This document shows, one piece after another, positions 5,702-36,379 of a stretch of 36,379 bases of DNA. The DNA lies in the IMG/VR virus record IMGVR_UViG_3300047496_000071, positions 1-36,379 of that record. One strand, 5' to 3'. Positions within the stretch are counted from its first letter, which is position 1; the number at the start of each line of letters is the position of its first letter. The translations under genes were made by a program, and so were the position numbers. The notes below the pieces were generated by a model. That model searched no databases, was not told the origin of the DNA, and saw only the letters and a list, made by a program, of their open reading frames with translations. This DNA is from a virus.

Positions 5702-6451
5702 TCAGCCGCTCCAAACCGGCGGCGGGGTCCATGCAAACCAAGGGTTGCCGTTCGGCGTATTCGCCGGGGGCGTTTTCAAATAATTGTGCTCAGCCGTAAG
5801 GAGCGTCATCACGGCATACCGGAGCGCATCCATGAGGTGATCGTTGGCTTTTACGATGTTTCCTTTTTCGTCGCGCTGATACAACCGAAACTCGGCCAGC
5901 GTATTCGAAAGATTCGAAAACAGTTTGAGCTTGCCCGTCGACAGCCAATCCCAAACCATCGTGATGCCGGCGCCTACGGCGTTGTCTGCCAGCTCAAGCT
6001 TCAGACCCATGTCTCGGTACACGTCGAGCAACTTCTCGCCGGCGAGGCCGCGCTGGCCGCGCGAGGCGGGGTCTATGACGCCGGTCATCCAGTTGGCGCC
6101 CAACACCTCGAGCCCGCGCACATGGACCGCTGGATCGACCTTGCCGCGGTAATATTCCTTGTAGGCCACCCAGCCGTCGCTGTCCGGATCGCGCGCCACG
6201 AATAGCGCCGCGGTACGGTTCCAACCGGTGTCGAAACCGTACCCTCGAGGCCAATGGTGCGGAATCTCAAACGGCGCTATCGTGATGTCGGCTTCGTCAA
6301 GCGGGTAGATCGCGCCAGATCCTATCGACGGAAGGCCGCGCGTACGCGCCTGACGCTGCCACGGCGGGATACCGGACAGGATGCTCGCCTTCTGTTCTGC
6401 GCTCAAGTGCGGTACATCCTCCCAGCCCACCATCACCGCGGCCTTAGACAT
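5702..6451 (-). CDS. Terminase large subunit, nuclease domain as a separate ORF
   Basis: 249 residues. The opening (VGWEDVPHLSAEQK, then a GSGAIYP stretch) is the usual linker that follows the ATPase motifs in TerL. It continues into an RNase H-like nuclease fold with the expected acidic residues in GFDTGW, GVIDPAS and HLMDALRY. It would cut concatemeric DNA during headful packaging. The start ATG at 6451 overlaps the stop of the ATPase ORF by 8 nt, in the +1 frame, with GAGGA upstream. The large subunit is therefore split into two polypeptides unless a frameshift joins them. A sequencing error of one base is the main alternative. Confidence 0.88.
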   Translation of the reverse strand: MSKAAVMVGWEDVPHLSAEQKASILSGIPPWQRQARTRGLPSIGSGAIYPLDEADITIAPFEIPHHWPRGYGFDTGWNRTAALFVARDPDSDGWVAYKEYYRGKVDPAVHVRGLEVLGANWMTGVIDPASRGQRGLAGEKLLDVYRDMGLKLELADNAVGAGITMVWDWLSTGKLKLFSNLSNTLAEFRLYQRDEKGNIVKANDHLMDALRYAVMTLLTAEHNYLKTPPANTPNGNPWFAWTPPPVWSG

Positions 6452-8108
6452 CCGCCGGTTCCTCGTCGTAGTTTTCGTCGAGTTCGTCCATTGTGCGCGG
6501 CGCCAAGTGGGGCATGTACTGCAACATGAGCTGCGTAACGCCGCGCAATGGTGTCGCCGTCAACATCAACCGGCCATCGCGAGTCATCAAACGAAGCAAG
6601 CACTCCGTGTAAATCTCGATCGACGGCTCCTCATCCAAATGGATGAAGTCTTGAGCGGTACCTTGAAACGCTTCGCGTCCCTGGTCGTAACTCTTGAACT
6701 GCAACGTCGAGACCCCGCCTGTCGGTACATGCCTCACGTATACGGTTTCGTATGCGTCAGGGATGCCGTGTTTGACTGTCGTACGCAGTATCAAATCGCC
6801 CGGGATCATCCCGGTACCGCGGGCCGAGTCGTCGCCGTACTTTCCGCACAGCGCGCTTTGCAGAATGTCCCGCGTGCTCTTGCCCGTGTCGCTCGCGGCC
6901 CAACCTTCCGTCGGCCGATCGAACCGGTACCCTTCCCACCAGTCAGGGTACTGCCCGGTCAGGTGCAGCGTGTCTGCGTACGTCCCTGCGACGGTTTTGC
7001 CGCTGTTATGGTGAATCGCCCCGGCCGCCACGTAGTTGTGCGGGCCTGGCACCTCAAAATCTACAATAGGCTGTACGCCTATTCCAGCCACTGCTAGAAT
7101 CCGGTTTCCGCCAACCACTGATAGAGGCTCACATGGCAACCACACGTTCTGGTGATGAGATAACAGCTGCAAAACTTCAAATTGCCAATCTGCTACGCGC
7201 TGGGCTCTACATTCAAGAGATATGCCGTCAGACAGCCCTTCCGGAAACTTCGGTAAGGCGTTGGGCGGAGCAACTGGGGCTGCCCATCTCGAAGTGCCGC
7301 TCCGGGCCAAAAGCCGGCCTAGAGCATCCTGAGTGGCGCGGAGGTCGTACGTACGATAAGCACGGCTATGCCCAAATCTGGATGCCGTTGCACCCGCAAG
7401 CGAACAATTCCGGTCGATGCTGGGAACACCGAGTTGTTGCCGAAGTAGTTCACGGACGCTACCTGCTACCAACCGAGGTAGTGAACCACGAGGACGGTCA
7501 CCCGCGCCATAACTGGCCTTCCAACCTGACCGTGTTCTCATCCAACGGAGACCACCTGCGTCACGACCTAACTGGCCGAGGTCACGGTACAAGCCCCCGG
7601 GCATCAATAGTCGGTGCTTATGGGAGCACTCAAAAACTTCGCCGTTGTCCAGATGAATCCGAAACGCTGGCTCTATGCCCTTTAGAAACACGCCAGTTGA
7701 TAGCGCATTTCGTCGAGTCACACCGTCCCACGCCTGAACACCGAACGCTCCCGCGCCGCAAACTTCGCGAACTTGGCGCTCACCGCGATCCGTGGGTATT
7801 ACCGTCCACGGCGTAAGACACCGGTTACCGCCAAACAGCGCGCACTCTTGATTGATTGCGCCGAGCTTGAACCATTCCATCTGCTTCGGATACGACTTTC
7901 GAACAGCTTCCGTCTCAAAGTAGGTCGAGATTCGATGCTGCGACAGGTGCCGAACTTTCGCCGCTATCGTCTCCAGCATCTTGAGCTTCGTCCGCCGGTC
8001 CAAGCTCTGAAAATTCTGCGTCAACTGCTCGAGGTAAGAGGTGCTTTTCTCCGCCGAGAGCGGTGAGCTGCTTGAGGACTTGTCCGAATCGGGCGTTGAG
8101 TTGGTCAT
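6444..8108 (-). CDS. Terminase large subunit, ATPase domain, interrupted by an intein
   Basis: 554-codon precursor. Residues 1-96 and 369-554 are the TerL ATPase; residues 97-368 are an intein. After splicing the product would be 282 residues with Walker A restored as GGNRSGKT, Walker B as FIHLDEEP and the coupling motif as LTATPLRG. It powers DNA translocation through the portal. The ATG at 8108 overlaps the small-subunit gene by 194 nt and has a weak ribosome site. An internal ATG at 7979 (MLETIAAKV) could be the true start. The ORF stops right after the ATPase region and the nuclease domain follows in another frame. Confidence 0.9.
   Translation of the reverse strand: MTNSTPDSDKSSSSSPLSAEKSTSYLEQLTQNFQSLDRRTKLKMLETIAAKVRHLSQHRISTYFETEAVRKSYPKQMEWFKLGAINQECALFGGNRCLTPWTVIPTDRGERQVREVCGAGAFGVQAWDGVTRRNALSTGVFLKGIEPAFRIHLDNGEVFECSHKHRLLMPGGLYRDLGQLGRDAGGLRWMRTRSGWKASYGAGDRPRGSLPRLVAGSVRELLRQQLGVPSIDRNCSLAGATASRFGHSRAYRTYDLRATQDALGRLLARSGTSRWAAPVAPPNALPKFPEGLSDGISLECRAQRVADWQFEVLQLLSHHQNVWLPCEPLSVVGGNRILAVAGIGVQPIVDFEVPGPHNYVAAGAIHHNSGKTVAGTYADTLHLTGQYPDWWEGYRFDRPTEGWAASDTGKSTRDILQSALCGKYGDDSARGTGMIPGDLILRTTVKHGIPDAYETVYVRHVPTGGVSTLQFKSYDQGREAFQGTAQDFIHLDEEPSIEIYTECLLRLMTRDGRLMLTATPLRGVTQLMLQYMPHLAPRTMDELDENYDEEPADV
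7092..7100 (+). promoter_or_regulatory. Possible extended -10 promoter for antisense HNH gene
   Basis: TGCTAGAAT matches an extended -10 (TG-N-TATAAT with one mismatch) 32 nt before the HNH start. Only a poor -35 (TGTACG) is present at 17-nt spacing. It would allow transcription against the late operon. It is a pattern match within coding sequence only. Confidence 0.3.
7133..7816 (+). CDS. HNH homing endonuclease encoded antisense within the intein
   Basis: 227 residues, wholly inside the intein but on the other strand, ending 1 nt before the intein's Cys1 codon. Residues 8-50 look like a helix-turn-helix (ETSVRRWAEQLGL). Residues 70-145 carry the HNH signature in order: GGRTYDKHGYAQIW, EHRVVAEVVHGRYL, VVNHEDG, NWPSNLTV and HLRHDL. 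The ATG has a GAGG site 5 nt upstream. The HNH core lies opposite intein residues about 85-133, where an in-frame endonuclease would normally be inserted. The last ~80 residues lie opposite splicing blocks A and B and may be little more than read-through. It probably cuts intein-less terL alleles. The antisense arrangement is seen directly; the homing role is inferred. Confidence 0.85.
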   Translation: MATTRSGDEITAAKLQIANLLRAGLYIQEICRQTALPETSVRRWAEQLGLPISKCRSGPKAGLEHPEWRGGRTYDKHGYAQIWMPLHPQANNSGRCWEHRVVAEVVHGRYLLPTEVVNHEDGHPRHNWPSNLTVFSSNGDHLRHDLTGRGHGTSPRASIVGAYGSTQKLRRCPDESETLALCPLETRQLIAHFVESHRPTPEHRTLPRRKLRELGAHRDPWVLPSTA

Positions 8109-27694: not shown

Positions 27695-28573
27695 ATGAAG
27701 CGAGCGGTGATCTATGCAAGGTTCTCAACCGAGAACCAGAAGGACGCCAGCATCGATGACCAATTCCGGGTCTGCCAGCGGATCGTTGACACCAACAAGC
27801 TGGAGCTGGTCGCGCGTTTCGAGGACCGGGCTATCAGCGGCGGCACCGACCAGCGGCCTGGCTACCAAGCAATGCTGCAACTTGCCAAAGCCGGCGGGTT
27901 CGACGTGCTAGTGACCGAGGACGTCAGCCGTTTGTCGCGCAACATGGCCGAGTCAAGCACCCTAGCCGCCAAGCTCCAAGACGCCGGCATCGACCTGATT
28001 ACATGCACGGGCGATGACACCCGCAGCCAGGGCTGGGGTCTGATTATCCACATCAAGCAGGCCGTGGCCGCGCACCTGCGTACCGAGATAGGTCACAAGA
28101 CGCGCAGAGGGCTTGAGGGCCGGGCGCTAGCGGGTGCCCCTACTGGCGGGCGCTGCTACGGGTACGCCGGTCCTGCGGCCATTGACGAGGCGCAGGCGCG
28201 CATTGTGCGCAACATTTTTGAAATGGCGTTGGTGGGCTCGTCGGCCATTCGCATTGCTGAGCGCCTGAACCGGGACAATGTACCAGCACCTCGAGGCGGC
28301 GCATGGCGCGACAGCACCGTCAAGGCGATTCTGCGGAATCGGAGATATTTGGGTGAAATCGTGTATGGCGCGCACGAGGTCCGAGGATCTGCGCAAGACA
28401 GCAAGAAGCGCATCCGCACCAAGCGCGCGGAGCCCCTCTCTGTGCGCCAAGTGCCGGAGCTGGCGATTGTTCCCAGGGAACTATTCGACAAGGTGCAAAA
28501 AGTGAGAACTGCGTCACTGGCACGCCGCGATTGGCTGTGCGAACCTTTTTCTGCCGTGAATCAACCGAACTGA
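27695..28573 (+). CDS. Serine recombinase, truncated form
   Basis: 292 residues. Catalytic domain at 1-~145 with IYARFS (Ser11) and the EDVSRLSRN motif; then the recombinase domain (~150-270) with GYAGPAAIDEAQARIVRNIFEMALVG, RIAERLNRDNVPAPRGG and YLGEIVYG. Large serine integrases usually extend to ~450-550 residues with a zinc ribbon and coiled coil. Here the frame ends after the recombinase domain. It may integrate the phage genome, resolve concatemers or act on the inverted repeats near 35558/36233. An ATG with a GGAG site follows 31 nt of spacer. Confidence 0.78.
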   Translation: MKRAVIYARFSTENQKDASIDDQFRVCQRIVDTNKLELVARFEDRAISGGTDQRPGYQAMLQLAKAGGFDVLVTEDVSRLSRNMAESSTLAAKLQDAGIDLITCTGDDTRSQGWGLIIHIKQAVAAHLRTEIGHKTRRGLEGRALAGAPTGGRCYGYAGPAAIDEAQARIVRNIFEMALVGSSAIRIAERLNRDNVPAPRGGAWRDSTVKAILRNRRYLGEIVYGAHEVRGSAQDSKKRIRTKRAEPLSVRQVPELAIVPRELFDKVQKVRTASLARRDWLCEPFSAVNQPN

Positions 28574-35064: not shown

Positions 35065-35330
35065 GCTACGAAAAAGTATGGCCCAAGACGCTAGTCTTGA
35101 AAGCGACGTCTGCGGCCGACTCCCTGGTATACGTCATGGGCGGCCCGGACGAAGACGTGTTCATGGCGTCGTTCGTCGACCGCGCCGAGGCGGAAGCCTG
35201 GGTGCAAGGGTGCAAGCAATTCGGCATGGAAATGATAGGAGCGAAACAGAATGGCCCAGCGCGAGAGCCGAGTGGAGACGTACCTCAAGGAGCGGGTGGA
35301 GCTGGTGGGGGGAGCGGCAGCGAAGTTTAA
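35061..35330 (+). CDS. Hypothetical protein
   Basis: 89 residues, MSYEKVWPKTLVLKATSAADS; acidic DEDVF segment and a Gly-rich end. Coupled by ATGA. Its 3' end overlaps the nuclease gene by 80 nt. Unknown function. Confidence 0.55.
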   Translation: MSYEKVWPKTLVLKATSAADSLVYVMGGPDEDVFMASFVDRAEAEAWVQGCKQFGMEMIGAKQNGPAREPSGDVPQGAGGAGGGSGSEV

Positions 35331-35547
35331 GGGTAGCATCCGCGGCGAGCCCGATCGTCTTCTCAGTTTCCCGACTGGGTACCACTGCTTAGTGGAAACC
35401 AAATGGAAAGAAGGTGTCGAGCCAAAAACGCATCAAACCCGGCGCCACGAATGGTGGCGGAAACGAGGCATGCACGTTTTTGTTTTGCGCTCTATTTGGG
35501 AGGTGGACCGCTTTATGAGCGTACTGCATAACCGGGGGTATTGTTGA
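35251..35547 (+). CDS. VRR-NUC family nuclease
   Basis: 98 residues. The core has GEPDRL (Asp35) and VETKWKEG (Glu49, Lys51), the PD-(D/E)xK signature in its short VRR-NUC form, plus RRHEWWRKRGM. This family supplies structure-specific nucleases in phages and in FAN1. It likely acts on branched or flap DNA during replication. It begins inside the preceding gene. Confidence 0.8.
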   Translation: MAQRESRVETYLKERVELVGGAAAKFKGSIRGEPDRLLSFPTGYHCLVETKWKEGVEPKTHQTRRHEWWRKRGMHVFVLRSIWEVDRFMSVLHNRGYC

Positions 35548-35557
35548 CCGAACATTT

Positions 35558-35579
35558 CATGCTTATCCGGTTATCACCC
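35558..35579. repeat. Left inverted repeat flanking the Mom-like gene
   Basis: CATGCTTATCCGGTT plus ATCACCC; reverse complement of 36233-36254 with 2 mismatches in 22 bp, the outer 15 bp being perfect. It sits after the nuclease gene, 11 nt before the gene at 35591. Confidence 0.8.
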
Positions 35580-35590
35580 ATGAGCCCTAG

Positions 35591-36238
35591 ATGTTGATCG
35601 AGGCATGTTCTTTGGAAGTGGTTCGCGACCTCTGCGCGAAGCACCACGGATATGGCGGCGCGGGCGGAGTGTCCGTCTATAATTGGGCAGTCATGGAGAG
35701 GGAGAAGGCCGTCGCGGCCTTCAGTTGGCAGCCCCCTGCGCCCGGCGCAGCTGTAAGCGTCTGTCCCGAGCATCCTGCGGGGGTGTTGGCGCTCTCCCGC
35801 ATGGTCGCGGTCGAAAAGGCGGATCGCGCGCTGAAACACATCTCCAAGCCGCTTCGCGTACAGATGCGTTCGTTGATCGATCGAGGCCGTTGGCCCGTCT
35901 TGATAACCTATTCTGACGAGAGTCAGGGCCACACCGGCTACGTCTATCAGTGTAGCGGGTGGGAAAAGACCGGGCGTAGGCGCATCCCTATTTTCGAGGA
36001 CGCCAACGGTAGGCGCACTAGCCGCTACTCCAACGGGAAGACGGGTGGACGTGACCTTGTGCGTGTCGGCTGGGCATTCATACAACGCTGGGAGCATTGG
36101 GCCTGCCCCCGAGGCGAAGCGGCTGAGTATGCGCGCCTTCACGGCTGGCAGCGCGTTCCTACGAACCGCGCGTATCGAAGCGGTGCCCCGGCCTTTCGCT
36201 GGGAAAAGGCCAACACAATAGGCGGTAGTCGTGGGTAA
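35591..36238 (+). CDS. Mom-like DNA modification (GNAT-type) protein
   Basis: 215 residues. LCAKHHGYGGAG near the start, ALSRMVAVEKADRALKH, WPVLITYSDESQGHTGYVYQCSGWEK and RRTSRYSNGKTGGRD resemble the N-acetyltransferase-like Mom/XF1762-type proteins, which modify adenine in DNA to block restriction (Mu Mom). Together with the C5 methyltransferase it would give anti-restriction. It is the last plus-strand gene and is bracketed by inverted repeats. The ribosome site is poor, suggesting regulated translation, as in Mu mom. Family by motif recall. Confidence 0.55.
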   Translation: MLIEACSLEVVRDLCAKHHGYGGAGGVSVYNWAVMEREKAVAAFSWQPPAPGAAVSVCPEHPAGVLALSRMVAVEKADRALKHISKPLRVQMRSLIDRGRWPVLITYSDESQGHTGYVYQCSGWEKTGRRRIPIFEDANGRRTSRYSNGKTGGRDLVRVGWAFIQRWEHWACPRGEAAEYARLHGWQRVPTNRAYRSGAPAFRWEKANTIGGSRG

Positions 36239-36254
36239 CAACCGGATAAGCATG
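36233..36254. repeat. Right inverted repeat flanking the Mom-like gene
   Basis: GGGTAAC plus AACCGGATAAGCATG, matching the left copy at 35558-35579 in inverse orientation. Its inner end overlaps the stop of the Mom-like gene. Directly beyond, AAGCAT-GG-ATGCTT forms a short palindrome before the end of the minus-strand gene. Confidence 0.8.
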
Positions 36255-36260
36255 GATGCT

Positions 36261-36379
36261 TCAAAGCACCAGGTTGGTCAGCGTCACGACGAGCGCCTGG
36301 ATCGGCTTGCCGCGCAGTAGCAGCATTCGCTTGTTGACCTTGTAAATGACGCCGCGCTTACACCCCTGCTTGTGCGCCT
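36261..36379 (-). CDS. 3' end of a minus-strand gene
   Basis: 38 codons enter from the right edge and end at TGA (36261-36263). The end of the product reads GVIYKVNKRMLLLRGKPIQALVV. If the genome is circularly permuted, this could be the last gene of the late operon. Identity cannot be judged from so little. Confidence 0.45.
   Translation of the reverse strand, partial: AHKQGCKRGVIYKVNKRMLLLRGKPIQALVVTLTNLVL

Follow-up and report, generated by a model that had tools for sequence, protein, structure and literature searches.

Near the right end of a phage contig, a gene for a Mom-like DNA modification protein is bracketed by inverted repeats, which raises the question of what kind of unit this is, how it came to stand there, and whether it can move or turn around. 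The window, by which we mean the whole stretch of DNA that was analyzed, is 36,379 nt long and corresponds to positions 1 to 36,379 of IMG/VR record IMGVR_UViG_3300047496_000071. Its features are collected in Table 1.

Anatomy of the element

A first-pass annotation had described repeats of 22 bp with 2 mismatches and a perfect outer part of 15 nt. We found that these are the outer part of arms that are 26 nt long, contain 3 mismatches (88% complementary), and are separated by 645 nt; the outer 15 nt of both arms do match perfectly. This 15-nt core, CATGCTTATCCGGTT, has exactly two occurrences in the window, one per arm, and by simple arithmetic about 0.0006 inverted matches of this quality within 1 kb would be expected by chance per 36 kb. 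The repeats had been placed just outside the gene, which is accurate for the left arm but not for the right arm, where the stop codon of the gene lies within the repeat.

The Mom-like gene is the sole gene within the 697-bp element, and a transposase gene is absent from its interior. The encoded protein matched the Pfam family Mom at 35.4 bits, which is above the curated cutoff of 27.1, and also matched the PHROG annotated as "Mom-like" with an E value of 2e-12. A sequence search revealed no relative of this protein in the PDB, and close relatives were found neither in viral contigs (by pattern scan) nor in deposited phages (by tblastn). An AlphaFold model, built on two sequences, had a mean pLDDT of 33.6 and was set aside. 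Immediately upstream of the element is an endonuclease gene, which we take to be a VRR-NUC gene (the name is our own).

Table 1. Coordinates of the features discussed in the text (positions in the window)
Feature	Position	Strand	Basis or remark
VRR-NUC-like endonuclease, upstream neighbor, outside the element	35251..35547	+	phrog_93 "endonuclease," E 4e-15
Interrupted helicase-like gene, first codons TTG ACC GAA CAT TT(C) = M-T-E-H-F	35544..35557	+	Overlaps the VRR-NUC stop
Presumed target GAACATTT	last 8 bases of 35544..35557	+	Helicase starts of relatives
Left terminal inverted repeat (LE)	35558..35583	+	Common to the whole family
Left-end stop/restart module TGAgccc TAG ATG TTGA	35581..35597	+	Three-frame stops around the cargo start; enriched family-wide
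Cargo, Mom-like DNA modification protein, 215 aa	35591..36238	+	PF25680, phrog_1384
Right terminal inverted repeat (RE)	36229..36254	-	26-nt arm match
Cargo stop TAA within RE	36236..36238	+	
GGA within RE	36244..36246	+	
Terminal ATG within RE	36252..36254	+	
Place of the second target copy, GATGCTTC	36255..36262	.	4/8 bases differ from GAACATTT
Serine recombinase/integrase	27695..28573	+	Resolvase and Recombinase domains; phrog_95 integrase

Elsewhere in the window, the gene for the terminase large subunit (6444 to 8108, minus strand) encodes a Terminase_6N domain at residues 369 to 528, and its Walker A region appears to be interrupted by an intein-like insertion that ends in ...HHN before SGKT. 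No intein model matched this insertion, and the intein reading is our own. An antisense open reading frame (ORF) inside the insertion (7133 to 7816, plus strand) gave weak, sub-cutoff matches to HNH_3 and HTH_23 and may encode a homing endonuclease on the strand opposite the intein.

A family of elements with the same ends

The exact 20-nt form of the end was found in 32 stretches of IMG/VR contigs, many of them as inverted pairs around different sequences. A degenerate end pattern matched at least 120 viral stretches, and two further scans added loci. Arms were paired into elements if they lay within 3.5 kb of each other and neither 14-nt end core had more than 2 mismatches, and collapsing identical elements reduced the set from 173 to 145 (127 viral, 17 from bacterial genomes, and the 1 in the window). 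The 127 distinct viral elements, collected among the matches listed, range from 184 to 2563 bp, with a median of 568 bp. Directly outside CATGC...GCATG, 88 of these carry a perfect 8-bp target duplication and 39 do not, a count in which cassettes that share ancestry cannot be taken as independent, the IMG/VR contigs are themselves assemblies, and pairing carries a mild bias because it favored the partner giving a perfect duplication. When flanks were permuted, identical 8-mers arose in 145 of 25,400 cases (0.6%), and when both flanks were shifted by one to four bases, they dropped to at most 29 of 127. Cassettes flanked by the same repeats, whose absence the first-pass annotation had listed among the results that would count against its reading, were found in this way at many other loci.

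In the reference-genome collection (257 Gb), the end pattern occurred in 46 stretches, compared with about 17 expected by chance (simple arithmetic), and 13 of the 17 distinct paired elements there had a perfect 8-bp duplication. Isolate genomes with these ends and perfect duplications are Bacterium M00.F.Ca.ET.205.01.1.1, Rhodoplanes elegans DSM 11907, and Bradyrhizobium viridifuturi SEMIA 690 (loci L153, 3731 to 5035, in the first of these and with a transposase; L182/L183; and L146), and such genomes could serve as cultured starting material. Two end sequences tried against deposited phage records and one tried against plasmids gave no match, which may explain why the family went unremarked. 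Among 50 cassette-bearing records, 24 matched phrog_2, which we take to be the terminase large subunit; some of the other 26 could be fragments, phages with other terminase types, or misclassified contigs.

Some of these elements encode their own transposase. A phmmer search with the protein from locus L022 identified an IS1595-family transposase in 13 of the 127 viral elements, 11 of which have a perfect duplication; 6 encode TnpB, and 108 encode neither. The L022 transposase contains PF12762 (DDE_Tnp_IS1595) and PF12760 (Zn_ribbon_IS1595) and matched NF033547, the IS1595 family transposase model, at 189 bits. Members of the IS1595 family are described as usually making 8-bp duplications and as having a zinc finger in all but one group (PMC8101967). 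One element (E129 in L243, 2563 bp, duplication TTCTGCGG) contains, in addition to the transposase, an ORF of 468 aa whose product resembles a DNA methyltransferase. When 50 chosen cassette-bearing records were searched whole, PF12762 was matched in 20 and not in the other 30, records that may be fragments. PF12762 was not found in the 36-kb record of the window or in any of the 19 relatives of its phage, and in 50,697 deposited phage records there were 3 with relatives of the L022 transposase, all less than 60% identical. The TnpB-like proteins are encoded at L067, L118, L130, L207, L247, and L253. A perfect duplication flanks 1 of these 6 elements versus 76 of the 108 other elements without a transposase; thus, TnpB elements may spread by another route.

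Most of the 108 elements that lack both transposase and TnpB hold a single small gene, while 9 have no ORF of 60 aa. Among 95 small elements (viral plus window, at most 1 kb, with an ORF of at least 60 aa but none of 300 aa), the ORF starts within 70 nt of the end in 82, and the median coding fraction is 0.84. The cargo comprises methyltransferases, two Mom-type proteins, PAPS reductase-like proteins, NADAR, and unknowns. Pfam was run on 91 cargo proteins from viral, bacterial-genome, and window cassettes; these were drawn from 103 reference proteins, with 12 omitted as presumed spurious reading frames, and the set had beforehand been stripped of transposases, near-duplicates, and ORFs under 60 aa. 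A total of 15 families were matched: Mom, Dam, NADAR, N6_N4_Mtase, and D12 methyltransferase in two proteins each, and C5 methylase, PAPS reductase, RNA ligase, MazG-like, radical SAM, TnpB-type, and others in one each. Most of the cargo has no assigned function. PHROGs identified PAPS reductase in 4 cargo proteins and matched several DNA methyltransferase models. PADLOC listed 25 models on the cargo, most of them for methyltransferases, and its matches were set aside as evidence of defense systems. The second Mom-type gene (L223, 924 to 1616) is carried by a 767-bp element that is flanked by a perfect duplication; the gene product is 24% identical to the Mom-like protein of the window. NADAR enzymes are described as reversing guanine ADP-ribosylation, and the NADAR cargo may act against host defense.

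Insertion site and proposed translational coupling

Comparison with related phages, which the first-pass annotation had proposed, located the site of insertion. We identified relatives of the window phage at 17 loci via the DNA polymerase and at 2 via the VRR-NUC gene. In these 19 related records, the end sequence was not found even with one mismatch allowed; thus, the insertion-free arrangement is the common one among the relatives. In L190, L191, L192, L196, and L142, a helicase-like gene comes immediately after the VRR-NUC gene, and its product begins M-S-E-H-F (L190), M-I-E-H-F (L191, L192, and L196), or V-S-E-H-Y (L142). In the window, the corresponding first codons run straight into the left end, which places the insertion at helicase codon 5.

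The right side of the window copy is different. A target duplication is absent (Table 1), and the helicase is found neither to the right of position 36254 nor anywhere else in the window. A minus-strand reading frame of 38 aa ends a few bases beyond the element, and the contig stops after 125 bp. This frame was unmatched in 18 related or cassette-bearing records and in deposited phages, in searches that were run without a positive control. The target duplication at L093 is the same 8-mer, GAACATTT; the genes flanking it are unrelated, and we consider this a coincidence. The nonhelicase flank and the missing duplication indicate that the window copy was rearranged or misassembled on its right. 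We give roughly equal weight to accepting and rejecting a specific form of this addition to the transposon reading, namely, that the window copy is a recombinant or an assembly chimera in which the cassette and the left junction are genuine and the sequence to the right of 36254 stems from another copy located elsewhere or from a deletion next to the element. The lack of a matching duplication, the absence of the expected helicase from the whole window, the early end of the contig, and the unmatched 38-aa frame all favor it, and repeated elements commonly break assemblies. However, the two ends together with the enclosed gene make up a unit of the type seen throughout the family, and in assembled sequence a chimera looks just like a real deletion.

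The ends of the cassettes are conserved past the repeats. Across viral, bacterial-genome, and window cassettes, each of the three reading frames meets a stop codon in the first 62 nt from the left end in 40 of 55 cassettes of the CACACA type (shuffled, 7.5; standard deviation [SD], 2.5) and in 22 of 34 of the CACCCA type, which includes the window (shuffled, 6.0; SD, 2.2). Stop codons lie a few bases from the cargo start in 47/55 CACACA-type cassettes, compared to 137/390 internal ATGs, and in 28/34 CACCCA-type cassettes, compared to 80/204 internal ATGs. In the window, the stops TGA, TAG, and TGA are at element offsets 23, 30, and 37, and the cargo ATG is at offset 33. Orientation was assessed in viral cassettes with perfect duplications: the cargo was codirectional with the upstream ORF in 33 of 49 cases (P = 0.02) and with the downstream ORF in 36 of 50 (P = 0.003), and it agreed with both flanking ORFs in 23 cases, opposed both in 4, and was mixed in 22 (P = 0.0003). 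Elements with ORFs of at least 330 aa, which are few, had no orientation bias (upstream, 2/9; downstream, 4/9). Because the left end closes three frames and the cassettes are mostly codirectional with their neighbors, the sequences suggest that cassette expression is coupled to that of the surrounding operon. At the right end, the terminal ATG shares its phase with a long downstream frame in 31 of 82 elements, versus 11 and 24 for the other frames (P = 0.009), a weak statistic given that some targets bring their own ATG; these counts are only suggestive of a right-end ATG that restarts the interrupted gene. The presumed target in the window, GAA CAT TT, would be in frame with this ATG.

Mobility, alternatives, and comparison with known systems

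Near-identical cassettes occur at different sites, with 98% identity over 363 bp between L038 and L076 and 92% identity over 677 bp between L100 and L106. An empty-site test with 99 constructs gave five hits. The one that was confirmed is E142 (1191 bp, duplication GGTCGGAC, in L257), for which an uninterrupted copy of the target is present in the same contig and is 100% identical on both sides. Hits for E129 and a second one for E142 (81% and 73%) overlap cassette cargo in L218 and L233, while those for E008 and E141 are self-hits at neighboring tandem elements. A 117-kb record classified as phage (G041, L261 to L266) contains an autonomous IS1595 copy with the duplication ATCGGGAT, about nine near-identical miniature derivatives of ~241 bp, several with duplications of their own, and also TnpB-bearing elements; it represents a natural case of element expansion in a phage-classified contig.

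The element at 35558 to 36254 is very probably a nonautonomous transposon, a mobile insertion cassette (MIC) with IS1595-family ends and one Mom-like passenger, because its ends are those of a family with 8-bp duplications, varied cargoes, and autonomous IS1595 relatives and because the helicase is uninterrupted in related phages. The mobile modification cassette that the first-pass annotation had envisaged is thereby upheld, with the same ends and 8-bp duplications around many genes and related phages that lack the insertion. We propose that an IS1595 transposase supplied by a coinfecting phage, a resident prophage, or the host would move the cassette in trans. Judging from the stop and orientation statistics, the left end would then stop ribosomes that leave the upstream gene, whatever their frame, and these could restart at the cargo ATG, so that the cassette would be expressed with the operon in which it lands. 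The terminal GGA...ATG of the right end might likewise restart the interrupted gene, as the weaker frame statistics hint. In phage Mu, modification by Mom protects phage DNA from restriction, and the Mom-type modification may bring the same benefit here.

Capture of an integron-like or homing cassette by site-specific recombination or an endonuclease, with no DDE transposase involved, would fit the presence of one gene per cassette with little noncoding DNA, and the rarity of duplications around TnpB elements could mean that a minority does spread otherwise; however, the targets vary and carry 8-bp duplications, and the same ends are found on autonomous IS1595 relatives, which makes this highly unlikely. 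An invertible modification switch, in which a serine recombinase would use the repeats to flip the gene relative to the early operon, as the first-pass annotation had also suggested, is extremely improbable: although the predicted recombinase gene does exist 7 kb away and the repeats are inverted and bracket the gene, the repeat is absent from related phages and surrounds unrelated genes in many others with 8-bp duplications, which mark DDE transposition (serine recombinases use a 2-bp crossover and make no target duplication), IS1595 transposase genes are present in elements that have these ends, and copies sharing recognizable flanks across the family were co-oriented in 37 comparisons, some between near-identical assemblies of the same phage, and inverted in 0 (a further 112 copy comparisons involved other or undetermined sites). 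We judged the serine recombinase to be unrelated to the element, as nothing in the family connects it with these ends. Its length is only 292 aa, which is short for a large serine integrase, and it is possibly truncated.

A broader proposal could, in our estimate, fall either way: uncultured phages would share a phage-adapted gene shuttle of IS1595-ended single-gene cassettes moved in trans, whose ends serve as a translational adaptor (three-frame stop, cargo restart, and interrupted-gene restart), so that insertions into the tightly packed operons of phages are tolerated and modification and counterdefense genes spread from phage to phage as ready-made operon inserts. Small phage genes come and go between relatives, usually without a visible vehicle. 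The vehicle here comes with ends, target duplications, and a transposase that can be identified, which makes phage gene gain, including that of antirestriction genes, assayable, and the conserved stop/restart module would illustrate how a transposon can live in genomes with almost no spare DNA.

Several known systems resemble these cassettes in part. The Mom of phage Mu belongs to the same protein family as the cargo; Mu mom is not known to be a transposable cassette, whereas here two distant Mom-type genes reside in separate cassettes. Integron gene cassettes are likewise compact single-gene units, and both appear to depend on outside expression; however, integron cassettes use attC/attI recombination, whereas those described here have inverted repeats and target duplications at varied sites. 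IS1595-family insertion sequences (ISs) include copies with passenger genes, known as transporter ISs, and passenger genes on IS copies have been described (PMC3129680, which cites Siguier 2009). With the IS1595 family, the same-ended elements share the DDE_Tnp_IS1595 domain, the zinc ribbon, and 8-bp duplications (PMC8101967), the last being a property of the family and not of the window copy. The ends here start with CATGCTTATCCGG, whereas those of ISApl4, an IS1595-type comparison element (PMC12561309), and of Merlin are given as starting with GG (PMC12561309, PMC8101967), and, unlike IS1595 ISs, most of the collected viral elements encode neither the transposase nor TnpB.

The closest parallel is the MIC, described as passenger DNA between transposon ends that an intact relative can move in trans (PMC3129680, PMC3913671), as the IS231A transposase moved MIC231A1 (PMC3913671). 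MIC231 of Bacillus cereus and the qnrD/qnrS2 mic have inverted repeats around a passenger gene, no internal transposase, and a target duplication, which is said to be "usually observed" and is not obligatory (PMC3913671). The window element has the first two of these features, and its family has the third as well. A literature search, with most subscription journals outside its scope, found no description of IS1595-ended phage MICs. In contrast to MIC231, the partner here is of the IS1595 type rather than the IS231 type, and the elements differ from MIC231-type MICs and from IS1595 elements with passengers in their setting, mainly viral contigs, in the predominance of single small phage-type genes, including those for DNA modification, and in the conserved stop/restart module at the left end.
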